A stretch of 64,000 nucleotides of DNA from an uncultured Pedosphaera sp. (GCA_903918755.1 CAIXFN010000073.1:62001-126000); one strand, 5' to 3'. Shown: positions 152 through 26,583, counted from the first letter of the stretch. Made by a program: numbers and translations. The notes: a model not told the origin generated them from the letters alone.

Positions 152-3100
152 ATGCTCCATTGGAAACACAACGTCTGGTTGGCGGTGCTGGGAACGGTTC
201 TCCTGCTGGTAGTGGCCGGCGGGGCCGTGGCCGCCCCTCCGCCTCCGACGGGTGCCGAATTCTTCGAAAACCGCATCCGGCCGGTGCTGGCGCAGGAATG
301 CTACGAATGCCATCGCACCGGGGGCAAACAAAAGGGGGGATTGGCGTTGGATTCACGGGACGCTTTGCGGCGGGGCGGGGAATCCGGCCCGGCAATCGTT
401 CCGGGTGATCCCGCCAGAAGTCTCCTGCTCCAGGCGATTCGCCATTCGTTGGCCGACCGCCACATGCCCAAGGGGCGCGCTCCGTTGGAACCCGCAGTGA
501 TTGTCGATTTTGCCGAATGGGTGCGCCAGGGCGCCCCCGACCCTCGCGACGCCCCGCCGACCGAGGGCCAGCTGGCGGCGGACACCGATTGGAATGCGGT
601 GATGAAACGGCGGAAAAGTTGGTGGAGTTTTCAACCGCTCCGGAAAACCGACCCCGCTACTCTGGCAACCAAGGCGAACCATCCCGTGGACCGCTTTTTA
701 GCCGTCCGCCAGGCGGCTGCCGGATTGGCGCCGGCCGGGCCGGCCGATCGGGCCACGCTGATTCGCCGGCTGAGTTTTGCCCTCCGCGGTTTGCCCCCGA
801 CTCCTACTGAAGTGGCGGCCTTCGTTCAGGATCCCGACGTCCATGCCTATCAAAAGCTGGTGGACGCCTTCCTGGCCTCGCCGCGGTTTGGCGAGCGCTG
901 GGCCCGGCATTGGATGGATTGGGTGCGCTATGCCGATTCGCACGGCAGCGAGGGGGATCCCCTGATTCCCTACGCCTGGCGGTATCGTGACTATCTGATC
1001 CGCGCTTTGAATGCGGATGTGCCCTACGATCAGTTGGTGCGGGAACATCTGGCCGGGGATTTGTTGCCCCAACCACGTCTGAATGACGAATTGGGTTTGA
1101 ACGAGTCCGCCTTGGGGATTGGCCACTTGCGGATGGTTTTTCACGGGTTCGCCCCCACCGACGCTCTGGATGAGCAGGTGCGCTTTACCGATGATCAAAT
1201 CAGCACGGTCTCCAAGACTTTTCTGGGGCTGACCGTCGGCTGCGCCCGCTGTCACGACCACAAATTTGATCCCATCAGCCAGCGCGATTTTTATGCGTGG
1301 TATGGCATTTTTGTCTCCTGCCCCCCGGCGGCGATCGCCGTGGATGCTCCGAACGCCGCCGATGCCCATTATCATGCGGATTTGGCCCAACAGAAACAAC
1401 GTATCAAGGCATTGCTGGCCGACGCGTGGTCCCGGGATGCCGAGGGGTTGGCGGCGGCCTTGCGTCAACCGGATGAGAAACGGCTGGCAGCGCTGGAGGC
1501 GGCCAAGGACAAAGACTCACTCGGATATCCCTTCTACCTGCTGCGGCATCCCACCGGCCAAACCGAGCCCGCCGCATCCCTGGCGGCCTGGTGGGCAAGT
1601 CAGGTGAGCGGGGCGGAAACCAACCGGACGTATGTCCAGCGCTGGGATCTGACTGACCCCGCGGTTTACGCCAATTGGCGACATGATGGTCCCACCGTGG
1701 CCGGGATCTATCCGGCGGGAGAATTTGCCATTGCGCCGGAAGGCGAGCGCATCCTGACCGGCCTGTATCCGGCGGGGGTTTACTCCCACCTGGTTTCCAG
1801 CCGGGACCGGGGGGTGCTGTTTTCGCCGCGGTATCCGTTAAAAGAGCCCTGCGATCTCTGGTTGCGCATCGCGGGTGACGGCGGGGCAGTGGCGCGTTAC
1901 GTGGTCCAGAGCTATCCCCGGGATGGTACGGTTTTTCCGGTGAACCGTCTGGGAGGCGGACAATGGCGTTGGATGAAATTTGGTTTGGATTATTGGCAGG
2001 GAGATCGGATTCACGTGGAAATCACCACTGCGGCAGATCAACCGGTGCTGGCGGATGTGGAGGCCACGCGCTCGTGGTTTGGCGTCTCCGAGGTGGTATT
2101 GACGCGCGCGGGCGAACCCGCCCCGGGTTCCGGTTGGCCGTTTCGTGGCGCGCTGGGGGCTGCCGGAGAGGAGCATGCCCCCACCAACGCCGTGGAACTG
2201 GCGGAATGTTTTGGCCGGGCCGCCCGGTTGGCGGTGGCCGCCTGGCGCACGGGGACGTTGACCGACGCGCAAGCTTTGTTCCTGGACGCGTTGGCAGGAG
2301 CGGGCTGGCTGCGCAATCAATTGGGCGAACTGCCGGAGCTGGCGCCCCTCATCACCGCCTACCGGACGGAGGCCGGCTTGCTGCGGGTTCCCACCCGGGC
2401 GCAGGGAGTGATCGAAACGGAGCCGGTGGACCAACCTCTTTTCAATCGCGGCAATCACAAACAACCCGGCGCACCCGTGCCGCGCCGGTTTCTGGAGGCT
2501 TTTAATACCGCCCCCTACCCGGCGACCGTCAGCGGCCGGTTGCAATTGGCGGAGGACTTTTTGCGGCCCGATAATCCGCTGACTTCCCGGGTGATTGTGA
2601 ACCGGGTTTGGTTGCATTTGTTTGGCCGGGGAATCGTGGCTACGCCGGATAATTTTGGGCGGATGGGCCAGGAACCGACCAATCCAGAATTGTTGGATTA
2701 CCTGGCCGGCTGGATGATCGAACATGGCTACAGCCTCAAAGGGCTGATCCGTTACCTGGTGATGACGGATGCCTGGCAGCGCTCCAGCGACGTCCCACCC
2801 GGGGCGCGGGAGCAGGACCCGGACAATCTTTTGCTCACGCATTTTAACGTCCGTCGGCTCGAAGCGGAGGCCGTCCGTGATAACTTGCTGGCGGTGAGTG
2901 GTGATCTGCAGGCGGACGAAATGTATGGGCCGCCGGTGCTGGGAGGGGCGACCCGGCGCAGTGTCTACGTGCGGGTGAAACGCAACGATCTCGATCCGTT
3001 CCTGCATGCCTTCGATGCGCCCGCTCCGGCCAGCACGGTGGGCTTGCGGGACGTGACCAATGTGCCGGGGCAATCATTGACCCTGCTCAACGATCCTTTT

Positions 3101-5644: not shown

Positions 5645-5726
5645 GCCCGCGACGTGGGTTGTCACCAGATCGTAACCGGGAATCTCGTTGACCGTCGCAA
5701 TCGCTTCCTGCGACAAATGATACTGC

Positions 5727-7004
5727 TTGAAAATCACCGAAAATTCCCGATCGGACCGCCGGTTCTCCCGCTGCCTGGCCGCCTTCGTGGCGTTGCTGCT
5801 TTTCCCCTTTATTGCGGGAAACGTGGCGGCCGGGGAATCGCCCGCCAGTTCCGCGCAGTTTTTGCTCTTCTCCGATTTGCACTTGGAAGTGGCGGAAGCC
5901 CGGTCCGGGTTTCCTAAGTACGGCGAGGATTCGACCGCCCTGCTGATCCAGTCGGCCCTCGCGGATGCACGCCGGCAATGTCCGCACCCCTTGTTCATTT
6001 TGATTACCGGTGATTTTCTGGATCACCAATATCCCCGTACCGCCGAAATGGCGTGGGCGGCGGAGGAAAAGATCGTGGGCTGGTTCGCCCGGGAGTTTCC
6101 TGGAACCACGGTATTTCCCACGCTGGGAAATAACGACAGTCTGCAACGGCATTATGAGGGGCAATCGGCGGAATTCCTGCGCGGATTTGCCGTGCGCTGG
6201 CAGCCGTTGATCACCAACGCCACCGACGCGGCGAGCTTCCTGGTCAGTTTTCCGACCAATGGTTGCTACCGGGCCGGTTTGCCGGGACTTTCTGGGCGGC
6301 AATTACTGGCGCTGAATATCAGTTACAAGCCGGAGACGAATGCCAACGGCGTGGTGCCCCAGCCCGGCACCGAGCCGGTGCAATGGGCGGCCGCAGAGGT
6401 GGCGGCCGCGGGGGAGCGGTCGGACTTTTGGCTGGCTTACCACGTTCCCCCGGGATTGGATTTCTTCAAACCCAATAAGAAGGGTGGTTACAGGGGTTTG
6501 TGGCAGCCGGACTTTCAAAAGGAACTCCTGCGGCTGACGGTGAATCCGGCCATCAAGGCGACCTTTGCCGGACACACCCACATGGATGAATTCCGGGTCA
6601 TTTACCAGGCTGCCCAACCGGCCGGCTTCATTCACATCATTCCCACCATCAGTCCCCTCCACACGAATGATCCGGCATATCAGATTTGCTCGGTGACGTC
6701 GGCGGGGGAAATCACGGATTGTGAAACCCACCGCCTGGCAAACCTGGAGTCATTGACCAATTCGACAGCCGCCGGTGAGGCGCAATGGGTGACCGAATAT
6801 TCCTTCCGGACGGACTTTGGCCAACCACGCTACGATGCTGCGGGCCTGCATGCGGCGCGGGAGATGATGCGGACCAACGGCCCAGTGCAGGAGCGATTCA
6901 TCCGGCATTTCGCCAGCAGCCGCACCAATGAGAGTTCCGTCACCGCCGCCAATTTTCCAAAATACTGGCCCCTGCTGGGCTTGACCAACGCCCCATCGCG
7001 CTGA
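5727..7004 (+). CDS. exported calcineurin-like metallophosphoesterase
   Basis: Exported metal-dependent phosphoesterase of 425 residues. Metal-ligand motifs in order: FSDLHLE (about residue 48), GDFLDH (about 94), GNNDS (about 136), a His block YHVPPG, and the C-terminal GHTHMDEF. The architecture resembles acid-sphingomyelinase-like phosphodiesterases. The only usable start is TTG at 5727, because an in-frame stop lies three codons upstream and no ATG precedes the signal peptide. The gene ends at 7004, directly abutting the convergent ABC transporter stop at 7005. The natural substrate cannot be told from sequence. Confidence 0.85.
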   Translation: MKITENSRSDRRFSRCLAAFVALLLFPFIAGNVAAGESPASSAQFLLFSDLHLEVAEARSGFPKYGEDSTALLIQSALADARRQCPHPLFILITGDFLDHQYPRTAEMAWAAEEKIVGWFAREFPGTTVFPTLGNNDSLQRHYEGQSAEFLRGFAVRWQPLITNATDAASFLVSFPTNGCYRAGLPGLSGRQLLALNISYKPETNANGVVPQPGTEPVQWAAAEVAAAGERSDFWLAYHVPPGLDFFKPNKKGGYRGLWQPDFQKELLRLTVNPAIKATFAGHTHMDEFRVIYQAAQPAGFIHIIPTISPLHTNDPAYQICSVTSAGEITDCETHRLANLESLTNSTAAGEAQWVTEYSFRTDFGQPRYDAAGLHAAREMMRTNGPVQERFIRHFASSRTNESSVTAANFPKYWPLLGLTNAPSR

Positions 7005-9194
7005 TCACTGGTGGAATTGCAAGTCCCACAGCCGGCGGTAATGCCCGTTTAGCTGCATCAATTCGTGGTGCTTGCCCTTCTCGACAATCTGGCCTTGGTC
7101 GAGAACCACGATGAGATCAGCGCGCTGGGTGGTGGAAAGGCGGTGCGCGATGCAGATGGTGGTCCGGCCTTTCATCAATTCCTCCAGGGCCGCCTGAACG
7201 ATGCGCTCGGATTCGTTGTCGAGGGCACTGGTGGCCTCGTCCAGAATGAGGATGGGCGCGTCCTTCACCACGGCTCGGGCGATGGCCACACGCTGCCGCT
7301 GGCCGCCGGACAACGCCACCCCGCGTTCGCCGATAAGAGTATCGTAGCCCGCGGGTTTCTCCATGGTGAAGTCGTGGGCGTTGGCATGGCGTGCGGCGGC
7401 GGTGATCTCCGCTTCCGTGGCCGCCGGCCGGCCCAGCCCGATATTGCGACGGATGGTGTCGTTGAACAGGATGGTTTCCTGGGTGACGACCGCAATCTGG
7501 CTGCGCAGGTCACGGGCCGATGCTTCCCGGATGTCCAGGCCGCCGATTCGCACCGCACCCTCCCCGGGGTCGTAAAAACGCATGAGCAGATTCGTCAGCG
7601 TGGTCTTGCCGGAGCCGCTGCCGCCGACCAGCGCGATGAGTTGGCCGGCACGGATGGTCAGATTGACGTCGCGCAGGACCGGTTTGTTGCCGTAGCTGAA
7701 GGTGAGGTTTTCGAATTGGATGTCCCGACCGGCAGCCACCAGTGGTTTGGGGTGGGCGGGTTCGCTGATCGCACTGGTCGTGGCCAGCAACTGGAAGGCG
7801 ATTTCCGTCGTGGCCTGGGCCTGCTCCAGTTGACTGTGGAGCCGGAGCAACGCCTTGATGGGCTGGTATAACATGAACACCGCGCCCACGAACTGCAGCA
7901 AATCGCCCGGCGTCATTTTTTCCGCCGGGGAAAAGGCGATGTAAACGAAAAATCCGGCGATCCCCACGGAACCGAAAAATTCCATCAACGGTCCCGGGAT
8001 TTCCGCGGAGCGCAGCACCCGCATTTGGTGGGTGAGCGAGGCGCGGGAGGTGCGGTCGAACTCGGCTCCGACGCTCTCCTCCAGGTTGAAGGCCTTGATG
8101 ATGCGATAGCCCGTAAAGGACTCGTGGATCAATTTGGTTTGCTCCGTGTTTTGCTCGTGCATGGCGCGCGTGGAGCGCCGCACTTTCCGCGCGTAAATCA
8201 CGAAGGGTACCATGGTGAGCGGGAAAACGATCAAGGCCACGAGGCTCAATTTTGGCTGGGCCCAAACCAGCACCATGACGAGGCCGGCAATTGTCATGGG
8301 CTCCTTGATGACCACCACCAGTGAATTGCCGATCATGTTTTGGAGGGAATTGAGCGAATTCAACTGGGACATGAGCATGCCGGTGCTGGTATCCGAAAAG
8401 AAACTGGAGGAGAGCCCCAGCAAATGGCTGAACAACCGGGCGCGCAGATCGTTGATCGCCCGCAGGCAAACCCAATTCATCAAATAAATGTTGAGATAGG
8501 AGAGCAGGCCGCGGAGCAGCATGGATATCGGCACCAAGGCGATGATGAGCACGGTCATTCGCGCGGAGGATCGTACATCCCAATGTTCGGTGGCCAGGAG
8601 GAGGTGATCCGTCAAATGGCGCAAGGGGGCGATTTTGCTCACCTTGGCATTACGTTCCAAATCGCGGGGAAAGGCGTCTTCGAGCAGCCAGCGATTCAAA
8701 CGCACCCGCTGCGATCCGGTGGGATTGGCGGTGAGCAGTTTGTCCGTGGCCGGACGCAGCTTCACTCCGGCGAACCGCGGTGCCGCGTGCAAGGCCGGGT
8801 CCTTGATGACCCGGTTGAGCCCGGCCACCATCACGACCAGCGCTTGGTTGGTATTGCCTTCGCCGAGGGCCAGCTTCGTCAGGTTTTCCCGGTCAGAGGG
8901 GGAGGATTGCTCCCACACATAGGCACTCACCGGGTCGGCGTGCCGCCGGAGTTTTTCGGCCAGGCGGGAAGGATCCGGGATCTCCGCGACCGCCAGCAGT
9001 GGCGAGCCCAGGCTTTGGGAGAAAGTGGGGGCATCCGGTTGGGGGAAGACGGTTTCAATGACCACCTTCACGCTGACAATCAGCATGGAATTGGACAAGC
9101 CGGCCAGGATGCCACAAATCACTCCCAGGATCAGCCGGAGGCGATAAGGGCTCGTCAGCCGCAGGACGGTCTTCCAAAACGCAAAAGTTTTCAC
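7005..9194 (-). CDS. ABC exporter, MsbA-like (fused TMD-NBD) with long TM1-TM2 loop
   Basis: Half-size ABC exporter (729 residues) of the lipid/lipid A flippase type. The C-terminal ATPase domain is complete: Walker A GGSGSGKT (524-531), signature LSGGQ (628-632), Walker B ILILDEA (648-654) and H-loop His684. The membrane domain is unusual. TM1 (about 20-45) is separated from TM2 (about 213-235) by some 165 mainly hydrophilic residues, whereas MsbA has a short loop. Most members are near 580-600 residues, so the extra length is this insertion. The gene follows an alcohol dehydrogenase and a GT9 glycosyltransferase on the same strand, which fits envelope glycan or LPS export. That role is inference. 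Confidence 0.9.
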   Translation of the reverse strand: MKTFAFWKTVLRLTSPYRLRLILGVICGILAGLSNSMLIVSVKVVIETVFPQPDAPTFSQSLGSPLLAVAEIPDPSRLAEKLRRHADPVSAYVWEQSSPSDRENLTKLALGEGNTNQALVVMVAGLNRVIKDPALHAAPRFAGVKLRPATDKLLTANPTGSQRVRLNRWLLEDAFPRDLERNAKVSKIAPLRHLTDHLLLATEHWDVRSSARMTVLIIALVPISMLLRGLLSYLNIYLMNWVCLRAINDLRARLFSHLLGLSSSFFSDTSTGMLMSQLNSLNSLQNMIGNSLVVVIKEPMTIAGLVMVLVWAQPKLSLVALIVFPLTMVPFVIYARKVRRSTRAMHEQNTEQTKLIHESFTGYRIIKAFNLEESVGAEFDRTSRASLTHQMRVLRSAEIPGPLMEFFGSVGIAGFFVYIAFSPAEKMTPGDLLQFVGAVFMLYQPIKALLRLHSQLEQAQATTEIAFQLLATTSAISEPAHPKPLVAAGRDIQFENLTFSYGNKPVLRDVNLTIRAGQLIALVGGSGSGKTTLTNLLMRFYDPGEGAVRIGGLDIREASARDLRSQIAVVTQETILFNDTIRRNIGLGRPAATEAEITAAARHANAHDFTMEKPAGYDTLIGERGVALSGGQRQRVAIARAVVKDAPILILDEATSALDNESERIVQAALEELMKGRTTICIAHRLSTTQRADLIVVLDQGQIVEKGKHHELMQLNGHYRRLWDLQFHQ

Positions 9195-15922: not shown

Positions 15923-18658
15923 ATGAATATGCGCAGATACCTAACCTTCGCCGGCCTTGTCGTCCTGATTCTGCTCTGCTCTGGCCCGCTCGGCTGGGCC
16001 GACGACGACGTCCGGCGCAAGGTCATTTCTCTGGATGGTCCCTGGCAATTCCAGGTGGACGGCGCCCCTGCCGGAGATTGGCGTCCGGTGGCGTTGCCGG
16101 CCAGCTTCCAGTCGCATGAAGGGACTAATGTTCACGGAGTGGGTTGGTATCGCAAGCAGGTGGCCGGTGGTACCGTCCCGGGGCAAACGGGCCAACGCGT
16201 GCTCCTGCATTTTCAGGCCGCCGCCACGGCAGCGGAGGTGTGGTGGAATGACCAGTCAGTGGGAAAACATCTGGGCGGTTGGACTCCCTTCCGTTGCGAC
16301 GTGACGGATTGGCTCTGGTCCGGGCCGGGCGGTCCGGCGCATGAGATCAAGGTGCGCTTGGATGAAAAAGTGGGTCACAATACCCAGGGTTTTTTGCCCG
16401 CCATCGCCCCCCACTTCGGCGGAATTTGGCAGGACGTTCATTTGTTGGTGGTTCCCGCCACTTACATCGATGATTTGCGCCTCCTGGCCGTGGGAAACCC
16501 CGGTACCGGCCGGTTGGAACTGGAGTTCTCCCTCGCCGGGACGCCGGTGGCCGATCCCCGCACCGTCACGGTGCGCTACCGACTGCGGGGAACCAGGCGC
16601 TGGGTTGCAGCGACCGCCCCGGTCACGCCCGTGATCGAGACGAACCGGGTTGCCGCTGCGGCCGGGCACCCTTTGCGCGTCGAAGTCCCAGTCGCGGATT
16701 TCCAGCTTTGGTCGCCGACTTCCCCCAACCTTTACGAAGTGGAACTCCAAATGCCGGCCACCGCCGGGGGCGACATGGTGACGACTCGCGCCGCTTTTCG
16801 CAGCGTGGCGACTCGCGGGGCGGAACTCCTCTTGAATGGGAAACCCATCAACGTGCGCGGGGTGCTGAACTGGGGGTACGCGCCGCCCCGGTTTGATCCG
16901 AATCCCGGCGAGGCTGCGTTCCGGCGAGAGCTGGAACTGGCGCGCAGCTATGGTTTTAACCTCATGAAATTCTGCCTCTGGATTCCGCCGCCGCGTTACC
17001 TGGAACTGGCGGACGAAGCCGGCTTCCTCGTGTGGGAGGAATATCCCACCTGGCACCCGGACATGACGGGCAAATATTTGGGTGAATTACGTCAGGAATA
17101 TGACGAGTTCTTCGCGGTGGATCGCAACCATCCGGCCGTGATCCTGCGCAGCCTCACGTGCGAGACCGGTTCGCGCGCCGAGCCGTCCGTCCTCCAGGCC
17201 CTGTACGAGCAGGCCCATGCCCGGGTGCCCCGGTCCCTGGTGGAGGATGACTCGAGCTGGATTCAATGGACCCGCTTCACCGATTTTTGGGATGATCATC
17301 CGTACGGCAACAATCACACCTGGGTGAGCACGTTGCATTCGTTGACCGACTATGCCCGTCAGCACGGCACTAAACCGCTGGTCCTGGGGGAAGCCATCAC
17401 TGCGGATACCTGGGTGGACGCCGCGCACTTCCGTCGCCAGTTGCGCGGGGAGCGGCCGTTCTGGGCGCCTGGCATTCTGGATTCCCAACCGCTGTGGTTG
17501 GACCGGATGAAGGCGCTGGCGGGGCCGGAGGGATTGGCGGACTTGGGGCCTGATTCGCTGCACTATGCCTGGCTGATGCGCAAATATCAGTTGGAGACGT
17601 ACCGTCGCGAAGTTCCGTCGGGCGGTAATGTGGTCAGTGTCATCCGGGATTTTCCCAAAGCCTCAATGGGATTGCTGGATTATTCCGGCCGGCCCAAATG
17701 GTCCCCGGCGGACTGGTCCTGGCACGGAGCCACCATGTTGCTGCTGCAAACCGAACAGGATCGCCGGAGCTATTCCAGCGGCGAATCGCTGATTGCCGGG
17801 GTGCTGGTCACTCATTTCGGAGAAACCCCGCTGGAGCACGCGCGCCTGACCTTGACCGTGACCAACCCCGAAGACCATGGCAGTGTGCTGCTGCGGAGTG
17901 AACAATTCCTTCCCGGGCAGAATCCCGGTACCCTCTCCCGTGTGGCGGGGCTCAACCTGGTTCTCCCGGAGGTAACCAAACCAGCGCGGTTGGAGGTGAG
18001 TGCGGTGTTGACGTCGGCCCAGGGAAGTCGCGCGAACACTTGGTCGCTTTGGCTGGTGCCGCGGGCGACCCGAGTTTCCGGGCCGGTTTGGGTGGACGCC
18101 TCGGTTGACCGGGAAACCGCCGCGGAGTTGTTTCCCGGCGCCGCCGCTTGGTCGCCGTCGCAAACGAATGGAATCGTGGTCGCTGCCCGGTTGGGGAGCG
18201 AAATGAGTGCGTTCCTGGGGCAGGGCGGTCGGGTGCTGCTGCTCCCGGACCACGGAACCAACAACTTTACCCTCAAGGATCACTGGTTCCTGCGCGGAGC
18301 CCCCTATCTGCCGGCCTCACCTTTGTTGCGACGGATGCCGCGGGATTTTTTGGTGGAACTCCAGGCCTTCGATCTGGCGGCCAAGGTATTGCCCGATGTC
18401 CCCTATCTCGACTCGATCGACCCCATGCTGATGCTTTGGGACACGCATGACGACGTGGTGGTCAAAACCCACGCGCTCGTGTTCGCCGCGCGGGCTGGGT
18501 CCGGTCGTTTGCTGGTAAGCGCCTTGCGGCATCGCGGAACGGAAAACGCGGCCGGAAAATGGCTCTTGGGTCAGTTGATCGAAATCCTGGCCGGCGAACC
18601 CGCCCCCCGGCACGCCCTGCCGCCGGAGTTTTGGCAGCATGTGGATGCGGGGAAATGA
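15923..18658 (+). CDS. GH2 family exported glycoside hydrolase
   Basis: Exported GH2-type enzyme of about 911 residues. A GTG at 15854 extends the frame, but ATG 15923 (or 15929) begins exactly at the signal peptide MNMRRYLTFAG. It has an N-terminal sugar-binding jelly roll (GPWQFQVDG, VGWYRKQV), an immunoglobulin-like middle domain, and a TIM barrel opening with NGKPINVRGVLNWGYAPP. The presumed acid/base Glu lies in SLTCETGSRAE, where the usual Asn before Glu is Cys. The presumed nucleophile lies in KPLVLGEAITADTW. A long C-terminal extension resembles a glutamine-amidotransferase-like accessory fold. Galactosidase, glucuronidase or another GH2 activity is possible. The cassette array starts just after the stop. 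Confidence 0.85.
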   Translation: MNMRRYLTFAGLVVLILLCSGPLGWADDDVRRKVISLDGPWQFQVDGAPAGDWRPVALPASFQSHEGTNVHGVGWYRKQVAGGTVPGQTGQRVLLHFQAAATAAEVWWNDQSVGKHLGGWTPFRCDVTDWLWSGPGGPAHEIKVRLDEKVGHNTQGFLPAIAPHFGGIWQDVHLLVVPATYIDDLRLLAVGNPGTGRLELEFSLAGTPVADPRTVTVRYRLRGTRRWVAATAPVTPVIETNRVAAAAGHPLRVEVPVADFQLWSPTSPNLYEVELQMPATAGGDMVTTRAAFRSVATRGAELLLNGKPINVRGVLNWGYAPPRFDPNPGEAAFRRELELARSYGFNLMKFCLWIPPPRYLELADEAGFLVWEEYPTWHPDMTGKYLGELRQEYDEFFAVDRNHPAVILRSLTCETGSRAEPSVLQALYEQAHARVPRSLVEDDSSWIQWTRFTDFWDDHPYGNNHTWVSTLHSLTDYARQHGTKPLVLGEAITADTWVDAAHFRRQLRGERPFWAPGILDSQPLWLDRMKALAGPEGLADLGPDSLHYAWLMRKYQLETYRREVPSGGNVVSVIRDFPKASMGLLDYSGRPKWSPADWSWHGATMLLLQTEQDRRSYSSGESLIAGVLVTHFGETPLEHARLTLTVTNPEDHGSVLLRSEQFLPGQNPGTLSRVAGLNLVLPEVTKPARLEVSAVLTSAQGSRANTWSLWLVPRATRVSGPVWVDASVDRETAAELFPGAAAWSPSQTNGIVVAARLGSEMSAFLGQGGRVLLLPDHGTNNFTLKDHWFLRGAPYLPASPLLRRMPRDFLVELQAFDLAAKVLPDVPYLDSIDPMLMLWDTHDDVVVKTHALVFAARAGSGRLLVSALRHRGTENAAGKWLLGQLIEILAGEPAPRHALPPEFWQHVDAGK

Positions 18659-18713
18659 TCGAAAAAATGGTCATTCGATGGTCCTTAAGCATGACTAATG
18701 CAATGTTGCCATC

Positions 18714-18872
18714 GTGACAAAGGCAGCCTTTTTAGTCGTACTTTTGTTTGCAAGCATTTTGGCACTATTGTATCTAACAAATCTATTCGGGCAGCCCGGG
18801 ACTGCCGGCCCAGTTCCATTTCGCGGTTCACGGGGTTGGGTCTCGCTCGCGTTCCTGAGTTCTGAACGTTAG
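18714..18872 (+). CDS. small hydrophobic cassette peptide (52 aa)
   Basis: A GTG-initiated frame of 52 codons starts MTKAAFLVVLLF and continues as one strong transmembrane segment to about residue 23 (LLYLTN). Its last 33 codons run through the attC site and it stops at a TAG formed by the core GTTAGGC. The tail has low complexity and is probably incidental attC sequence. Whether it is expressed is uncertain. It would be the only gene of the first cassette. Confidence 0.35.
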   Translation: MTKAAFLVVLLFASILALLYLTNLFGQPGTAGPVPFRGSRGWVSLAFLSSER

Positions 18873-18874
18873 GC
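18772..18874 (+). repeat. attC-like site 1
   Basis: The left core ATCTAAC (18772-18778) and right core GTTAGGC (18868-18874) flank 89 bases. The end segment CTGAGTTCTGAACGTTAGGC is almost identical to the end of site 4. The next gene starts 14 bases downstream. Confidence 0.75.
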
Positions 18875-18888
18875 GGCATTACATTTTT

Positions 18889-19194
18889 ATGACCAGAGAG
18901 ACTAAGCAGCTTTTGACACGATGGCAGTCACTCGAAAAGGATGGCGGCCTTCAGCGCGTAGTTTTGTTCGGCCGCCTTCTTTGGATGGTCGGTTGTGTGC
19001 TTTGCATTTTTGTCGTGTTCGGCGTGGTTTACCGACTTCATCCAGCTTTGATCGCTGCCGCTGCCGCGGTCATGGGTTGGGTGGTCGCCGAGCGGAACGC
19101 ACTGCGGACGCGCGCGGCACAATGGCCCATTTTCAAGAATTACATTGACTGGAAGCGAGTGCAGGATGATTTGAACGATGACCCTGCCGCCTAA
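18889..19194 (+). CDS. cassette gene: hypothetical two-TM membrane protein
   Basis: 101-residue protein of unknown function. It has a charged N-terminus (about 1-22), two hydrophobic helices (about 27-48 and 52-67) and a basic C-terminal segment AERNALRTRAAQW followed by an aromatic/charged tail. ATG 18889 lies 14 bases after the GTTAGGC core of site 1, and its TAA stop is inside the GCCTAAC core of site 2. The frame therefore fills one cassette exactly. No catalytic motif is visible. No separate promoter is obvious, as is usual for cassettes. Confidence 0.75.
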   Translation: MTRETKQLLTRWQSLEKDGGLQRVVLFGRLLWMVGCVLCIFVVFGVVYRLHPALIAAAAAVMGWVVAERNALRTRAAQWPIFKNYIDWKRVQDDLNDDPAA

Positions 19195-19284
19195 CACTCA
19201 ATTGCAGCAGCGAACGACGGCGGACCGTCACAGTTGCAATCGGCGCGCCTCGTGGACAAGCTCGTCGAGCTTGGGACGTTAGGA
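19189..19284 (+). repeat. attC-like site 2
   Basis: The left core GCCTAAC (19189-19195) overlaps the stop of the preceding gene. The right core GTTAGGA (19278-19284) deviates from GTTRRRY at the last base. The interior contains the pairs ATTGCA/TGCAAT and GACGG/CCGTC, so it can fold. The next gene starts 13 bases later. Confidence 0.72.
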
Positions 19285-19297
19285 CCCACTACGAACC

Positions 19298-19630
19298 ATG
19301 CGATTTCTCCTACTCATGCTCTTTGTCGGACTCGCAAGCTGTTCGTCGTCCGAGCGCCTATCCACGCACCCTGCGGAGGCAACGACACAGGTTCAGCGGT
19401 GGGTTGCAGTTGGCACTTCGGCCACCGATGCGCGGCGCATAATGGAGCAGCATGGATTTACTTGTTCGCTCATCGCTAACGGCACCTTCGGCACACTTCG
19501 TGGCGTCGATTATCTCTATTGTAACCGGCATGATGGCAGCATCATTCAGCAACGTTGGCAGGTCGCACTTCTTTTGGTCGAAGGCAAGGTTTCAGTCGTG
19601 CATGTGACGACTGGATCGGTTGGGCCATGA
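19298..19630 (+). CDS. cassette gene: small hypothetical lipoprotein
   Basis: 110-residue protein with a lipoprotein signal peptide: MRFLLLMLFVGLASC, lipobox Cys at residue 15, then a Ser-rich spacer. The mature part contains TSATDARRIMEQHGFTC and ends in a beta-rich segment (WQVALLLVEGKVSVVHV). The alpha-then-beta pattern recalls small BamE/SmpA-type lipoproteins, but I cannot assign a family. It starts 13 bases after the site 2 core. Its TGA overlaps an ATG of the next frame (ATGA at 19627), and no attC separates it from the following gene, so this cassette seems to carry two genes. Confidence 0.72.
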   Translation: MRFLLLMLFVGLASCSSSERLSTHPAEATTQVQRWVAVGTSATDARRIMEQHGFTCSLIANGTFGTLRGVDYLYCNRHDGSIIQQRWQVALLLVEGKVSVVHVTTGSVGP

Positions 19631-19668
19631 CCCTGTGGCTCAGTTCTATCATAAAGCCCAAAAGCCCC

Positions 19669-20313
19669 ATGCCCGACTACAATTTATCCGCTGGTAACTA
19701 CCCTGGCATGAAGTATTGGACAGAGGCCGACGACGGCAAGTGCTTGGTGATCCGGCCGGGGCGAGTTCCCTGGGGGGCGATACTATTCATGGAGGGGTTT
19801 ATTGGGGGATTGGCTTTTGCCATTCTTTGGCCGGTGTGGCATTACGCCCCTCTAGACCGCTCGTTGTTCACCATGATGTGTTTTCCAGTGGGTATCGCGG
19901 TATTGGGTTGCTTTCTGGGTCCCCTTGGCCAGATCCGGACAGAGCGTGCGAAGGGGGCCATTCTTACCTACGACCGGGAAAGTGAAATGATAAGGCTGCC
20001 ACGCGAGTGTTTGTCTCTGCGAAAGGCCCAGATCCTGGAGTTTAGGATCCTGCAGGAATGCTCGAAGCCCAGCACCTCCGAGCGGTGGACGCATTCGCTC
20101 CTATCGCGTTCAAAGGCCAGACTTGGGGATGGCGCGCGGGAGTTGCAGGTGGTCTATCGTAATCCCAACGTAAGGAGTGCTACTGTCTTGCGGGTGTCGT
20201 GGAGTAGTCTCTTCGCTGACGTTGTCGCAGCCCTCAAGGCAGCTGGATTTGCGAAGATCAAGTTGGTGGAACAGCAACCGGGCCGGAGCGAGTGGAAAGA
20301 GAGCGAAATATGA
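19669..20313 (+). CDS. cassette gene: hypothetical membrane protein
   Basis: Protein of about 214 residues, second gene of a two-gene cassette. Two hydrophobic helices lie near residues 36-56 and 65-86. They are followed by a soluble, mixed alpha/beta domain with basic patches. No known family recognised. ATG 19669 is used here. ATG 19627, which overlaps the preceding stop as ATGA and would add 14 residues, is equally possible and would imply translational coupling. The stop at 20313 is one base before the left core of attC site 3. Confidence 0.7.
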   Translation: MPDYNLSAGNYPGMKYWTEADDGKCLVIRPGRVPWGAILFMEGFIGGLAFAILWPVWHYAPLDRSLFTMMCFPVGIAVLGCFLGPLGQIRTERAKGAILTYDRESEMIRLPRECLSLRKAQILEFRILQECSKPSTSERWTHSLLSRSKARLGDGARELQVVYRNPNVRSATVLRVSWSSLFADVVAALKAAGFAKIKLVEQQPGRSEWKESEI

Positions 20314-20314
20314 G

Positions 20315-20407
20315 GCTCAACAAAGTAGATAAACCGGACCCGGCGGCGGCGTCTCAATGGCAAGGCCGATATCATCCGCGCCGGGTTCGTGACCTGCAAC
20401 GTTAGGC
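20315..20407 (+). repeat. attC-like site 3
   Basis: The left core GCTCAAC (20315-20321) and right core GTTAGGC (20401-20407) are 93 bases end to end. The inner arms ACCCGGCGGCG and CGCGCCGGGTT are near-complementary, giving a convincing attC-type stem. The next gene starts 15 bases downstream. Confidence 0.77.
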
Positions 20408-20422
20408 AGCAAGCGGGCGCAT

Positions 20423-20788
20423 ATGGACGACGATGACCAAAACAGCAGTCCTGTGAGCAAGATGCTTTCTTCGCTGGAGGAGGCCGCATTCGACTCTGAT
20501 CTGTCAGCCGATGCGGATTCGCCGAGGGATACTTGGTGGTTAAGATGGCTGAAGTTTTCTTCGATTATTGCCGTTGCTGCCATCGTGCTTGGCCTTGGTT
20601 TCCTGTTTGAGGATTATATTGAGCAGTATCACGCTGATGCATTTTATCAGCGAGACATGGCCCAGCGGCGCGTTGAGCGTGACACAATCAGCTCCATGAA
20701 GTTTCGATTTTGGCTGGGAGTGGGTGTGGGCGGTGGATTGGGCATGGTTTACGTCGCCCGCTGTATTGTTAGGAGAGTTGATCCGTGA
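20423..20788 (+). CDS. cassette gene: hypothetical two-TM membrane protein
   Basis: 121-residue protein of unknown function. The N-terminal 38 residues are acidic and Ser-rich. A first helix spans about 45-63 (FSSIIAVAAIVLGLGFLFE). A charged middle (QRDMAQRRVERD) and a second glycine-rich helix (about 97-113, WLGVGVGGGLGMVYVA) follow, then a basic end. The gene starts 15 bases after the core of site 3 and stops seven bases before the core of site 4, so it occupies one cassette. Confidence 0.75.
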   Translation: MDDDDQNSSPVSKMLSSLEEAAFDSDLSADADSPRDTWWLRWLKFSSIIAVAAIVLGLGFLFEDYIEQYHADAFYQRDMAQRRVERDTISSMKFRFWLGVGVGGGLGMVYVARCIVRRVDP

Positions 20789-20795
20789 GATCGCT

Positions 20796-20893
20796 TCCTA
20801 ACAAACACTGTCGCCAAAGCCGGTTGGCCGCTTCAGTTCCGCCTTTGTGGTTGACATTGCCCGTCCGGCGTGGCTGAGTTCTGGACGTTAGGC
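20796..20893 (+). repeat. attC-like site 4
   Basis: The left core TCCTAAC (20796-20802; first base departs from the R consensus) and right core GTTAGGC (20887-20893) are 98 bases apart end to end. The arms TCGCCAAAGCCGG and CCGGCGTGGCTGA pair imperfectly. The last 20 bases nearly match those of site 1. The next gene starts 12 bases downstream. Confidence 0.76.
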
Positions 20894-20905
20894 CGCACTG
20901 CGCGC

Positions 20906-21271
20906 ATGACCATCTCAAAGCCAAATCTGGTTCGGCTGCTGGCGGCGGTCTTCGCCGCAGCGACATCCGCTTGGTTCGTCGTGCTCTACACTCATTTTTC
21001 CAAGTTCCGCTTCGAGTTCGAGCACCAAGGCGCAAATCTCATCGTCATCACCGAGGAGATGGCGGCCTATGGAGCGTGGCTGTTTGCTTTACCTGTCATG
21101 GCGCTGATTGTCGGTTTGTGGCTTTTGCTTGCGCGCCCGGCAGCGGCGACGACATTCGAGGCGATTTTGGCCGTCACGTGGGTTCTTGCTTTCGCCCTCG
21201 CGCTGTTTTGCATTCTGGGTTGGCAGGTCCAGAATGTCCCGACGTTTAGCCACATGGAGTGGCACTACTGA
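20906..21271 (+). CDS. cassette gene: hypothetical three-TM membrane protein
   Basis: 121-residue integral membrane protein with hydrophobic helices at about 9-29, 53-75 and 83-106. A polar loop between helices one and two carries FRFEFEHQGANLIVITEE. No family was recognised. The ATG at 20906 is 12 bases after the site 4 core; a longer in-frame start at 20870 would lie inside attC and is rejected. The stop is followed by a degraded attC-like tract, consistent with an old terminal cassette. Confidence 0.73.
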   Translation: MTISKPNLVRLLAAVFAAATSAWFVVLYTHFSKFRFEFEHQGANLIVITEEMAAYGAWLFALPVMALIVGLWLLLARPAAATTFEAILAVTWVLAFALALFCILGWQVQNVPTFSHMEWHY

Positions 21272-21359
21272 TTGATGAGAGAAGCGCAGCCAGAGTCCGT
21301 GCTGCCAGATCGCCGGTGCCACTCGCCCTCACGTCCGACCGTCAGTTCCGTGCGTAGGC
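21268..21359 (+). repeat. decayed attC-like site 5
   Basis: The end of this tract (CAGTTCCGTGCGTAGGCGG, to about 21361) aligns with the ends of sites 1 and 4 (GAGTTCTGGACGTTAGGCCG) apart from substitutions and loss of one T in the core, CGTAGGC instead of CGTTAGGC. No clear left core remains. It reads as an inactivated attC closing the array. The following 127 bases, to 21486, contain nothing recognised. Confidence 0.45.
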
Positions 21360-21486: not shown

Positions 21487-22671
21487 CTACGGCTTCTCGA
21501 GCGCCTTCGCGGCCGCCAGTTGAAACACCCGGCGTACTTCGCTGGCATCACTGTTCGGGAAGTTGGAGCGTTGGACCATCAGGATGTACGCTCGGCCTTT
21601 CACCGGATCAATCCAGGCCTGGGTGCCCCAGGCACCGCCATGACCAAAGGTGCCGGGGGAAAGCATTTCCGCGACTCCCGGATGGGGAATCCGCAGGATA
21701 CTGGTGGCGATCCCCCAACCATAATTGGTGCCGTAACGGCCAAACGTGTCATTCTGGAAAAAGCCGGTCGGCAGGGTTCCTGTCTGTGGTGTTTGCAGAA
21801 ATTTCATCGCGGCCGGTGTCAGATACTGCCGCCCGTTAAAGGAACCGCCGTTGAGCAGCATCTGGCAGAAGCGGGCATAATCCAGCGCGGTGGAGTAGAG
21901 GCCTCCATTGCCCTGGGGTGGCCGGTCTCTCGGGCCGAAATCCGGACGTGGCGGCACCGGGTCCAATGTCTGGCCATCTTTGCTTTTCGCGTACGCCGTG
22001 GCCAACCGGGAGCGCAACTCCGGCGTGGGGTAGAAAGTCGTGCTCATCATTCCGAGCGGATCGAAGAGCCGTTGTTGGAGGAACGCATCAAACGTCTGGC
22101 CGCTGACCACCTCGACGATGCGGGCGGCGGCATTGATCCCGCTCTGAGTATATTGCCACCGGCTGCCGGGCTCGTATTGCATGGGCGTCGCGAGCCATAT
22201 GGGAACCAGGTCCGCCAGGGTCCGGGCCTTTTGCGCCGCGGGTCCGCTGGCTTCACCCAGCCCGGAGGTATGCGTGAGCATTTGGGCGATCGTGAGGTTG
22301 GCCGGCTTGCCGGACGGGGTTTTAAGATTGGCAAATTCCGGCAGGTATTTCGCGACTGGATCCGCCACATTGAGTTTCCCTTCATCCTGCAACATGAGGA
22401 TCGCGGTCCCCGTCACTGGTTTGGTCATCGACGCAATCCAACAAAGGGTGTCCGGCGTCATCGGTCGACCGCTGGCGATATCGGCGTGTCCTGTGGCTTC
22501 AAGATGCAGGACTTCATTCTTCGTGACGACCATGGTGACCGTGCCAGCGGCTTCATGCTGGTCGATCATGGTTTGCATCGCGGCGCCGATCCCGGGAAGG
22601 GTGGGAGAAGCCGCGGACAGGGAGAGGGCGCTCAAAACGCTCAGACCGAGCAATACGTAGCGGTGGTGCAT
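21487..22671 (-). CDS. serine hydrolase, class C beta-lactamase / EstB family
   Basis: Exported beta-lactamase-fold hydrolase of 394 residues. A signal peptide covers about residues 1-21. The nucleophile motif is SMTK (Ser81, Lys84). A Y-x-S box occurs as WQYTQSG near residue 173, replacing the Y-x-N of true class C lactamases. The third box appears as HGGAWG. These features fit the EstB-like esterase/transpeptidase-related group rather than a resistance enzyme. The substrate is unknown. It is the first conserved gene to the right of the cassette array and is followed on its 5' side by the GH106-like gene, 97 bases away. Confidence 0.85.
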   Translation of the reverse strand: MHHRYVLLGLSVLSALSLSAASPTLPGIGAAMQTMIDQHEAAGTVTMVVTKNEVLHLEATGHADIASGRPMTPDTLCWIASMTKPVTGTAILMLQDEGKLNVADPVAKYLPEFANLKTPSGKPANLTIAQMLTHTSGLGEASGPAAQKARTLADLVPIWLATPMQYEPGSRWQYTQSGINAAARIVEVVSGQTFDAFLQQRLFDPLGMMSTTFYPTPELRSRLATAYAKSKDGQTLDPVPPRPDFGPRDRPPQGNGGLYSTALDYARFCQMLLNGGSFNGRQYLTPAAMKFLQTPQTGTLPTGFFQNDTFGRYGTNYGWGIATSILRIPHPGVAEMLSPGTFGHGGAWGTQAWIDPVKGRAYILMVQRSNFPNSDASEVRRVFQLAAAKALEKP

Positions 22672-22768: not shown

Positions 22769-25528
22769 CTACTCCAGGGCGGAACGGAGCCGGACCGGGC
22801 CGAGCAATCCGGAGGGGACCTGTTGATGGACGATCTGCTTTTCCTGAGGCGAAGGAAAGCGCTCCCCATAGGCGGCGCGCAAGGCCGTCAAATCTTCATC
22901 CGGGGTGCCGAGGAAGCGATTAAGGGGCAGGTTGGCCACCGTGATGGAAACGGTATTGGTGCCGGGTTTCAGCCAGTCGGTGATTTCCACTTCGAACGGA
23001 GGAATCCACGCCGCTCCGGCCGGATGGCCGTTCAGGGTGACGTCGGCCACTTCGCGGACAATGCCGAGCTCCAGCCAAGCCTGCTTAGGTAACGGATGTT
23101 GCCAGTCAAAATTCGCGGTATACGTGGCACTACCGGAATAAAACTGTGCTTCTGGCCAGATCGTCCAAGAAGTGAGGTTGGTCAAAACGCGGGATGCCGG
23201 AGCTGGGGCGCCCGTGAACTCCAGGTGCCAAACTGGGGCCAGATCCTCGCTGTGCCACACTGACTCCCGCGCAGGTTGATTGGTGGTAGGTTTGCTAAAG
23301 ACGACAAAGATCGATCCGCGGGGCGGCAGGCTGATGGTCACGCCCTTGCTCCCATCCGGTTGCACCCCTACCGAAACCGCTTGGCGACTGCCATCAAGCG
23401 GATTCCAAAGCGTGGCCGCGGTCTGGTCCGTTCTGAAATCCGCTTGGAGCGATTGGCGTTGCTCCCCGGTGTTGGCCAGAAAGTAGATGTCCAACTCGGG
23501 GGTGCGGCGATGGACAAATCCGATTTCGGCCAGGGGCGATTGAAAGTGGATGTCCGCCGGGAACTCTCGCAGGGCGCTCGCGAGGCTGGATTTTTCATCA
23601 GGTAGGAAAATCACTTTTCCTTTGCCGCAGGTGCGGCTCCAGGATTGCTTTGGCTCGGGTTGATCAGCAAACAACTCGCGCAACAAAGCCAGGGACGCTT
23701 CCGTCGGAACAGAACCGTTGCCGTCGGCATACACCCGCTCGGGCAGCCGCCCGGTGGCAATCACGGTGCCGCCACTGCGGCAGAACGCCGTCAGTTTTTC
23801 CAACGCTTTGGCCTCGATGCCGATCAACCGGGGGAGGATCACGAGGGTGTAATCGCCATCTCCGGCCAGCAGGTGACCGTTCTTCACTTCCGCCAGACGG
23901 TTCACGGCGAAGAAATCAATGCCATCATAATTAAGGCCGTTCGCCAGCAGCCCATGCAACAGATCGGATTCGTGGTGCAAAGCGGTTTGCAAACCGAATT
24001 CATCGGTTTTCTGACCCGAAACGAAATGATCCCGCAAATCAAAGCCCAAGGTCATTTGGTCCACGCTGCCGGTGGCGAATTTGTCCTCCACCGGGAGATA
24101 CACCGCCACCGGCGCCACCGGCCGGCCCTGCCGGAGCAGCCATTGACACCGACTCGTGTAATCCATGAGCTGACGGAACCACGGCCATTGCGGATTGTGC
24201 TGGTTTACCACTGGACCATAATACGGCAGCCAGCCGGGGGCGGGCACGGAGCGCGGGGAATAGGCGAAATCGACTCCCGTCAGGTCATTGACCCCAGCCA
24301 GAAAATGCAAATCACTGGCCAACTTCATGTCGCTCAGACTGTCTCCCAGGCGATTCGGGAGACCCAACCAGGTCCAGGCTTCGGCCCCGATAATTCGCTT
24401 TCCGGTCAAATGCGCGCCCGACGCTGCCAGGCGTGACAGCGAAAACCCCTTCCATTCGTATTGCTCGCCGGTGGGTACATCAATATACGCCGCAGCTGTC
24501 AGGGGATTGGGCGGAGTGCCATAAGCCTCCAATTCCAATTTTACCCCGTGTTGGTGTGCCCAATCGGCGGTGAACTCGGTGAATCGTTCTTCCGTCAATT
24601 CCGCCAGCGTCCGCCAATAATCGAAACGAATGGCCGGGGAACGCGGGGAGTCTTTGTCGAACAGTTCATCCAGGACGGACGTCAACGGATACCCTCTCCG
24701 CCGTTGAAATTCCGCCGGCAGATCCGTTGTCCAATTGGCACCGTAAACTTCCAGGCTGTCGCAGAAGATTGACTCGATTTGCCCGGGCGCGGCGCGCAGC
24801 ATTGGCGCCACCACCGCCTCCAGATAACGCGCTGCTGCCGGCGATTGGTAATGATCCAGCACCAGCCCTTCGCCGCCCAGGGCGGGGCGCTTGACCCGCA
24901 TGCGGGTCGGACCGGTGAGGTAGGCGAAGACGGGTGCTTGCGCATCCGGAGGCCGCAGCAGGCCGATTTGCCGGTCAACCCGGCTCGTCAAATCTTCTTG
25001 TCCCTGTCGGAGGGCGAAAAGTTGTTCGTCCGGCCCCATTTTGGGCACGGTGACCAAGCCGGAAGTCGCGATGGGCAGTGCCACCCGGCGCAGGTGCTGG
25101 GCGGCGTCGGCGGGAGCGACCGACGGCCCGCCGAACGGCCAGCCGGTGCCCCCCGCGACAGAAAACCGAAGATTCATTGCCGCCGCTTTGCGGGCGGCAT
25201 AACCAAACGTGTCCAGAAATTCCGGGGAGAGAAAACGCTGGTTATGCACCGCGGCTCCCTCCGTCGCCACCGGATACATGAAAAAAGTCATTACCCCACC
25301 GACCCCGGCCTCCTGCAAAAGTCCCAGTTGATAATCGATTTCCGGTGGCGTCCACGCGGGACCAAAAACCCGCCAGAACATGCGGGTCCGCACTTCAGCC
25401 GGAGGATGGAGAAATCCTTCGGCGATAGCGGTCTCCGATTCTTCCCTGGCTTGGAGACTGCCCGTGTAAGCGCTGTCGGCAAGAAGCAAACCAGCCAATA
25501 AGGCTCGCAGATAGGAGGTCGCGATCAT
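22769..25528 (-). CDS. GH106-like exported glycoside hydrolase (alpha-L-rhamnosidase family)
   Basis: Exported protein of about 919 residues. The frame extends upstream to 25708, but that would overlap the neighbouring gene, so ATG 25528 with its signal peptide (MIATSYLRALLAGLLL) is used. The N-terminal catalytic region opens with VRTRMFWRVFGPAWTPPEI and contains GGTGWPFGGPSV, typical of the GH106 rhamnosidase-related group. A glutamine-amidotransferase-like region follows (near 590-650). The C-terminal jelly roll carries YTANFDWQHPLPKQAWLELG and NTVSITVANLPLNR. It probably acts with the GH127, GH39-like and GH2 enzymes across the cassette array on a branched plant glycan such as rhamnogalacturonan. 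That joint role is inference. Confidence 0.82.
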   Translation of the reverse strand: MIATSYLRALLAGLLLADSAYTGSLQAREESETAIAEGFLHPPAEVRTRMFWRVFGPAWTPPEIDYQLGLLQEAGVGGVMTFFMYPVATEGAAVHNQRFLSPEFLDTFGYAARKAAAMNLRFSVAGGTGWPFGGPSVAPADAAQHLRRVALPIATSGLVTVPKMGPDEQLFALRQGQEDLTSRVDRQIGLLRPPDAQAPVFAYLTGPTRMRVKRPALGGEGLVLDHYQSPAAARYLEAVVAPMLRAAPGQIESIFCDSLEVYGANWTTDLPAEFQRRRGYPLTSVLDELFDKDSPRSPAIRFDYWRTLAELTEERFTEFTADWAHQHGVKLELEAYGTPPNPLTAAAYIDVPTGEQYEWKGFSLSRLAASGAHLTGKRIIGAEAWTWLGLPNRLGDSLSDMKLASDLHFLAGVNDLTGVDFAYSPRSVPAPGWLPYYGPVVNQHNPQWPWFRQLMDYTSRCQWLLRQGRPVAPVAVYLPVEDKFATGSVDQMTLGFDLRDHFVSGQKTDEFGLQTALHHESDLLHGLLANGLNYDGIDFFAVNRLAEVKNGHLLAGDGDYTLVILPRLIGIEAKALEKLTAFCRSGGTVIATGRLPERVYADGNGSVPTEASLALLRELFADQPEPKQSWSRTCGKGKVIFLPDEKSSLASALREFPADIHFQSPLAEIGFVHRRTPELDIYFLANTGEQRQSLQADFRTDQTAATLWNPLDGSRQAVSVGVQPDGSKGVTISLPPRGSIFVVFSKPTTNQPARESVWHSEDLAPVWHLEFTGAPAPASRVLTNLTSWTIWPEAQFYSGSATYTANFDWQHPLPKQAWLELGIVREVADVTLNGHPAGAAWIPPFEVEITDWLKPGTNTVSITVANLPLNRFLGTPDEDLTALRAAYGERFPSPQEKQIVHQQVPSGLLGPVRLRSALE

Positions 25529-25599
25529 GCTCAACCCTGACCTTGTCCCAAAGATTTGGCGGAGTAAATCAGGAAAGCTGCCGGTACTCGATGGGGGGC

Positions 25600-26583
25600 T
25601 CAGGGTGCGGCACGCCCGCGATAAAATACCTGGGCGGCTCCGGTGCCCAGTGGCTGGCTGAACTCTACGGTTCCGGTGGGGGAATTGGTGGTGAATAGCG
25701 CGGACCACTCGACCAGGTTCGTGGAAGTCTGCAGCTCGTAATTGGCATTGGTAGCGCCGGTGAGCCGGAGTCGCAGAGCCGTCTGGTCGGGTGGCAGGAG
25801 AGTGAGTTGGGGGGCCACCAAGGACCGCGTGTGGAGGGGGAATTCCGTGATCCGGGCCAAGGCAGGAATCCCGGTTCCGTAGCCGGAAGTGCCCGGGAAG
25901 CCGGGTTGCGCGGCGGTAAGGAGCCCCATGAGCTGGCTGTCGGGTGGCAAGGTGTGCGCCGGGATCACGACGGAAGTGGACGACCCGGACAGCGCCCCCG
26001 GTTGCAAAGGAGCGGGCGTGCTAAAGACCGTGTTGCTTCCCCCATCCAGGATCGTGAGTTGCCCGATGACGGCGACCCCGCCGAGGGCGTTCCATTGCAG
26101 GCTGAAATCGGCTGAGCTGTTCACGTCTTGCGCAGCAGGGAGGTTGTTGATCTGGGGTGTTGGCGGGGCGGAAATGAAGTTGAAATTGAGCGAGAGCGAC
26201 TTCAAGCCATCGTGGACAGTCAGGATGGAGAAGTTGTAGCTGGACCCAAAGCTCGAGGAATACAGCGCATCCAAGGCGGCGCTGGTGTTCGTGGCGTCGG
26301 TGAATTGCCACAGCGTTCCGTTGGTTGTGCCTATTAGAGTTCGCGATGGCGTGGTGCCCGGAGGCTTGACCGAGGCGGCGAGGACCAGTCCGTTGCTGGC
26401 TCCCACAACCACGCAGGCGAATCCATAACCATTCGTGGTCAGCAGGGTCGGCGCCCCGTTCGTTGGCTGGACGTAGTTTTGCGACTTGATGACGGTGTAA
26501 TCGCTCACATCAGCGGCGACTCCGGAAAAAGCCGCCAGGATCGCGACGAGGCCCAGCAGGGATAAGCAAAGGCGATGGTTCAT
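25600..26583 (-). CDS. secreted hypothetical protein with verrucomicrobial C-terminal module
   Basis: 327-residue exported protein of unknown function. The start at ATG 26583 is chosen for its signal peptide (MNHRLCLSLLGLVAILAAF); a longer frame to 26715 has no signal. The mature protein is rich in Ser, Thr, Asn and beta-prone segments. It ends with a module containing NANYELQTSTNLVEWSALF and GAAQVFYRG. This type of ending recurs in secreted proteins of this lineage, including the IPT/TIG protein at 57986. The module may be a sorting or binding domain. The gene lies 71 bases upstream of the GH106-like gene on the same strand and may be cotranscribed. Confidence 0.7.
   Translation of the reverse strand: MNHRLCLSLLGLVAILAAFSGVAADVSDYTVIKSQNYVQPTNGAPTLLTTNGYGFACVVVGASNGLVLAASVKPPGTTPSRTLIGTTNGTLWQFTDATNTSAALDALYSSSFGSSYNFSILTVHDGLKSLSLNFNFISAPPTPQINNLPAAQDVNSSADFSLQWNALGGVAVIGQLTILDGGSNTVFSTPAPLQPGALSGSSTSVVIPAHTLPPDSQLMGLLTAAQPGFPGTSGYGTGIPALARITEFPLHTRSLVAPQLTLLPPDQTALRLRLTGATNANYELQTSTNLVEWSALFTTNSPTGTVEFSQPLGTGAAQVFYRGRAAP

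Follow-up and report, generated by a model that had tools for sequence, protein, structure and literature searches.

Integron cassettes are usually promoterless, and the integrase IntI excises and inserts them at the folded bottom strands of attC sites. Arrays of such cassettes without an integrase are called CALINs; they are common, and three origins have been listed for them, namely off-target insertion, loss of intI and rearrangement (PMC8618304). CALINs at several loci have been reported in Xanthomonas (PMC12444791). In a published survey the gamma-Proteobacteria held 93% of complete integrons (PMC9024848), and the Verrucomicrobiota are merely named among the integron-bearing phyla (PMC8618304). 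CALINs and Verrucomicrobiota integrons are already described, and the array analysed here adds one more case. It lies in a window of 64,000 nucleotides (64 kb) from an uncultured Pedosphaera sp., within contig C73 (180 kb) of a 7.19-Mb genome in 118 contigs. Like a CALIN, it has tandem attC sites less than 4 kb apart in one orientation, short ORFs and no intI nearby; it differs from known CALINs in its Verrucomicrobiota host, in an attC type of 93-108 nt that is found order-wide, and in the presence of several clusters in one genome. Sedentary chromosomal integrons of the kind seen in Xanthomonas and Vibrio have a counterpart on contig C93 of the same genome, which carries IntI, an attI-like core and a homogeneous attC array, whereas the window array has neither intI nor attI and the IntIs of the order are separate from the nearest Pseudomonadota IntIs. 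As in Xanthomonas (PMC12444791), decayed intI copies and CALINs occur at other loci of the genome. Insertion at attG sites would also scatter cassettes over chromosomal sites in trans, but neither an empty site nor a clean junction that would prove it was found at the window array.

The array is 2.5 kb long, reads from left to right and has over 80 kb of its contig on either side. To describe it we used two covariance models, R1, built from nine aligned attC of contig C93 alone, and R2, built from 61 attC elsewhere in the genome with the window sites left out. The features are listed below with their scores under these models, for which the E-values are rough.

15929-18658, plus strand: left neighbour, GH2-family glycoside hydrolase gene (Pfam PF02837, PF02836, PF00703)
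18659-18771, plus strand: left edge, about 113 bp past the GH2 stop, with a truncated ORF (GTG at 18714) that has one hydrophobic segment and runs into attC site 1
18772-18874, plus strand: attC site 1, ATCTAAC/GTTAGGC, 103 nt; R1 19.9 bits; R2 36.6 bits, E 2.3e-7
18889-19194, plus strand: cassette 1 gene, 101 aa, predicted membrane protein, no family
19189-19284, plus strand: attC site 2, GCCTAAC/GTTAGGA, 96 nt; R1 26.1 bits; R2 53.9 bits, E 5.2e-12
19298-19630, plus strand: cassette 2 gene a, 110-aa lipoprotein with lipobox LASC
19669-20313, plus strand: cassette 2 gene b, 214 aa, two hydrophobic segments
20315-20407, plus strand: attC site 3, GCTCAAC/GTTAGGC, 93 nt; R1 20.2 bits; R2 28.5 bits, E 3.4e-5
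20423-20788, plus strand: cassette 3 gene, 121 aa, predicted membrane protein, no family
20796-20893, plus strand: attC site 4, TCCTAAC/GTTAGGC, 98 nt; R1 51.7 bits, E 4.2e-11; R2 48.7 bits
20906-21271, plus strand: cassette 4 gene, 121 aa, predicted multi-pass membrane protein, no family
21272-21359, plus strand: possible decayed fifth attC, marginal, ending GCGTAGGC
21487-22671, minus strand: right neighbour, beta-lactamase-family serine hydrolase gene (Pfam PF00144)
22769-25708, minus strand: GH106 alpha-L-rhamnosidase-like gene (Pfam PF17132)

We conclude that this is very probably a CALIN, made up of four attC, four cassettes with genes and a stub left by one more, between the GH2 and serine hydrolase genes. 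An earlier, sequence-only reading had named four sites with these core boxes at 93-103 bases, and all four are present at the positions given. AAC and GTTAGG occur in every one (4/4), and the boxes follow RYYYAAC/GTTRRRY apart from the outermost core base in two sites, which is off by one base each (GTTAGGA and TCCTAAC). The sites occupy one strand over 2.2 kb, so that at least two attC lie less than 4 kb apart. Both of our own covariance models recovered the four sites. In the 64-kb window, R1 returned exactly these four up to E 10, in one orientation throughout and with no others, its best score being at site 4. R2 placed them at E 5e-12 to 3.4e-5, the next best match in the window being no better than E 0.14. 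A point against the assignment is the low R1 score of sites 1 and 3, which this independent model puts at about 20 bits. The gene arrangement bears out the same reading, which had the genes beginning 12-15 bases after a core and finishing at the following one: we measured 14, 13, 15 and 12 bases, and the stops fall at the next R'' box or a few bases from it.

The fold described by the models is that of attC, with an R stem, an unpaired central spacer, an L stem and two extrahelical bases. Compensatory change was seen at 9 of 22 pairs among the nine C93 sites of R1 and at 18 of 22 among the 61 sites of the R2 set, and the covariation score of these 61 was reached by none of 500 shuffles. We also ran R1 on 80 public loci that surround IntI genes related to that of C93, most of them from Pseudomonadota, where it gave 35 matches at E<=0.001; all 35 were on the IntI strand and 34 of them lay upstream of IntI, a placement which indicates that R1 recognises ordinary attC. 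Sites of this type also adjoin intI in relatives of the same order. The window attC are homologous in sequence and fold to the attC of the C93 integron in the same genome. Folding of single window sites never gave a z-score below -1 against shuffles; since such folds are indistinguishable from those of shuffles, folding alone is uninformative here. An Rfam scan of the 64-kb window gave no match.

The window array is decayed by comparison with C93. The proportion of stem pairs still intact is 74% in the window sites versus 95-96% in the C93 and C79 arrays, and the window cores are intact. Upstream of the first attC there is only about 60 bp of truncated ORF and not a full cassette; this ORF is probably what remains, at the 3' end, of a cassette since lost, and the covariance models gave no attC signal at 18659-18771. 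At the right edge, the fifth-site candidate scored 30 in local alignment versus a shuffle maximum of 29, and it had no significant covariance-model score. A further candidate, a decayed attC between the lipoprotein and 214-aa genes (match to CTGTGGCTCAG at about 19633), was not clearly above shuffles and was rejected. GC content is 56% in the array versus 60% in the window, and 54-58% across the array versus 60-65% in the left flank.

The cassette products had been described as unknown membrane proteins and a lipoprotein, and this agrees with what we found: small predicted membrane proteins and one lipoprotein, with no recognised family among the five. The second cassette holds two ORFs, for the lipoprotein and the 214-aa protein, a point absent from the earlier description. 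Nothing convincing came from defence-system models run against the cassette products, or from PDB sequence searches with the 214-aa protein and a lipoprotein profile. A single-sequence structure prediction for the 214-aa protein was poor (mean pLDDT 46) and was not used. Comparison of the window's cassette proteins with the other attC arrays examined gave no relatives. The suggestion that the array stores envelope functions is speculative, and many products of the genome's other cassettes look like soluble proteins.

We then considered whether the same genes stand in syntenic position in distant relatives, which had been named as a sign of ordinary chromosomal genes. Both cassette genes that we tested are distributed patchily. 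Of 319 other genomes of the order, 4 have relatives of the 214-aa protein (39-49% identity), in no case adjoining an R2-type attC, and 8 have relatives of the lipoprotein, which also has a second copy in its own genome. The lipoprotein has a relative in a cassette elsewhere, and the relatives of the 214-aa protein do not lie in recognisable cassettes. In G604, a genome from another family of the order, the lipoprotein relative sits within an attC-bounded cassette; a clear attC (GCCTAAC...GTTAGGC), interrupted by two N, follows 4 bases after its end. In G640, a GTTAGGC core lies just upstream of the relative, and the model scores it weakly (E 0.03). Within the window's own genus, the family is in addition an ordinary chromosomal gene with a conserved neighbour (C16; G001:C100). 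Taken together with the cassette in G604, this means that the family occurs in both settings.

The description of the array as lacking an integrase stands for its contig and fails for its genome. The family model TIGR02249 found no IntI on the whole of C73, tblastn of the window and its flanks (80 kb) revealed no trace of intI, and a complete integron, with intI and attI adjoining the array, is absent from the window. In the genome as a whole, TIGR02249 matched C93, C95, C46 and others, with only C93 above the cut-off; since intI genes stand on other contigs (C93, C95 and C46), the lack is local. On C93, intI is on the minus strand, followed by two GTTAGGC attI-like cores and then by about 11 attC that read away from intI. 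This intI (C93:40001-60000, local 2183-3007) encodes 274 residues without the C-terminal catalytic part, and the array beside it is intact. C95 carries the C-terminal half of an intI with a normal end, cut by the contig end and 97% identical to the C93 copy over 65 shared residues. An IntI fragment at the start of contig C46 (C46:1-20000, 6-301) has model residues of about 9-69 joined to 221-260, an internal deletion. A separate observation concerns G000:C11:39273-41679, where three tyrosine-recombinase genes stand in a row on the same strand, one with a stop inside the match; these look like a recombinase trio element.

A wider search for attC, also proposed earlier, was productive. About 65 attC-like sites in about 14 clusters of at least two were found by model search, a count that comes from a sequence search plus examined contig stretches and whose weakest matches (25-30 bits) may include false ones. 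Five clusters, on C101, C104, C82, C34 and C73, are CALINs, each separated from the nearest contig end by more than 10 kb and with no IntI nearby; those on C101, C104, C82 and C34 are so deep inside their contigs that they are not assembly splits. The arrays on C79, C92 and C9 are at contig ends and may come from a second integron broken by assembly. Seven well-preserved attC stand at the start of C79 (617-4224), and this array possibly belongs with the C95 intI, from which assembly would have split it.

How the window array arose can be framed by several readings, of which off-target deposition carries about even weight with us. An IntI encoded elsewhere would have inserted cassettes at a secondary, attG-like site, and more would have joined at the first attC. 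In its favour, IntI is encoded at two or more loci of the genome and the attC clusters number about 14, five of which lie well inside contigs with no IntI nearby; no IntI remnant was found in the searched C73 flanks, and insertion at attG is described in literature cited in PMC12444791. However, the left end is a truncated cassette stub rather than a clean TTRRRY boundary, and the right end has no clear attC. A tentative second reading, to which we give appreciable but lesser credence, is that a complete integron formerly stood at the locus, or that a piece of one was moved there by rearrangement, and that intI has since been lost. CALINs are usually read as degraded integrons (PMC9024848), the IntI genes of this genome are decaying (truncation on C93, internal deletion on C46) and the stems of the array are eroded; this reading has to contend with the lack of any intI remnant by tblastn in the window and 80 kb of flank or by the family model on all of C73.

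It is very improbable that the genes are ordinary chromosomal ones, set apart by a dispersed repeat with a mere likeness to attC. The occurrence of the lipoprotein family as a normal gene in the genus would fit such a repeat, but the same repeats adjoin IntI in the expected place and orientation in this genome, in the order and in Pseudomonadota, their covariation is strong and has the attC-specific fold, and the genes all start 12-15 bases past a core. Equally hard to credit is an assembly artefact that misplaced part of a complete integron, for which the fragmentation of the genome into 118 contigs and the contig-end arrays on C79, C92 and C9 would speak, since the array is far from both ends of its contig and shows more decay in its sites than the intact arrays do.

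Under the reading of the locus as a CALIN, its cassettes would have been captured by an IntI of this lineage and would have reached the locus by off-target insertion in trans, which we slightly prefer, or by rearrangement away from an integron, with decay presumably following arrival. Comparison of the gene order GH2, serine hydrolase, GH106 with relatives was possible in part. Among 115 sampled relatives the GH106 gene had no counterpart at E<=1e-80, the GH2 gene was present in two with other neighbours, and no empty-site relative lacking the array was found via these two genes. Without Pc or a local IntI, the cassettes are left with read-through for expression and with IntI in trans. If they are expressed, transcription probably runs on into them from GH2, which lies upstream in the same direction. 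The stretch separating GH2 from the array showed no terminator-like site, and its one promoter-like match did not exceed chance, which makes GH2 read-through the most likely source. Excision or reshuffling would depend wholly on an IntI supplied in trans, and the eroded stems would probably make it less efficient.

Beyond this genome, R1-type attC were present in 46 of 58 genomes of the order at E<=0.01, and IntI exceeded the curated cut-off in 18 of the same 58, the sample being the window's own genome and 57 relatives. R2-type attC occurred in at least 46 of 378 genomes of the phylum, a lower bound because a stricter cut-off was used and few candidates were scored. Limisphaerales and subdivision 3 records stand among the nearest relatives of the C93 IntI, which supports the phylum well and the order name tentatively. 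A tree of 96 IntI proteins separated 22 Verrucomicrobiota rows from 74 Pseudomonadota rows by a branch with SH-aLRT 100; two of the Verrucomicrobiota rows have the same sequence, the Pseudomonadota rows were picked for likeness to the C93 IntI and several branches are long, so that this unrooted tree shows separation and not age. Whether the order is a major under-described integron lineage, with IntI and 93-108 nt attC diverged from those of Pseudomonadota and with decaying clusters deposited off the integron, is in our estimate evenly balanced. A literature search reaching few subscription papers found no earlier description of the order-wide frequency of attC or IntI. If the order-wide prevalence is true, members of this abundant group, which is known mostly through metagenomes, would commonly gain genes by cassette capture, and a single genome with so many scattered clusters would provide a natural case for studying CALIN formation by off-target insertion versus integron break-up. 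In a phylum sample, IntI exceeded the curated cut-off in 109 of 388 genomes, several with two to five copies. On the C93 contig, two ORFs that read into attC (C93:40001-60000, 5648-5833 and 7660-7848) gain the recurring tail NHALQRTA, and similar tails in protein databases may flag cassettes.
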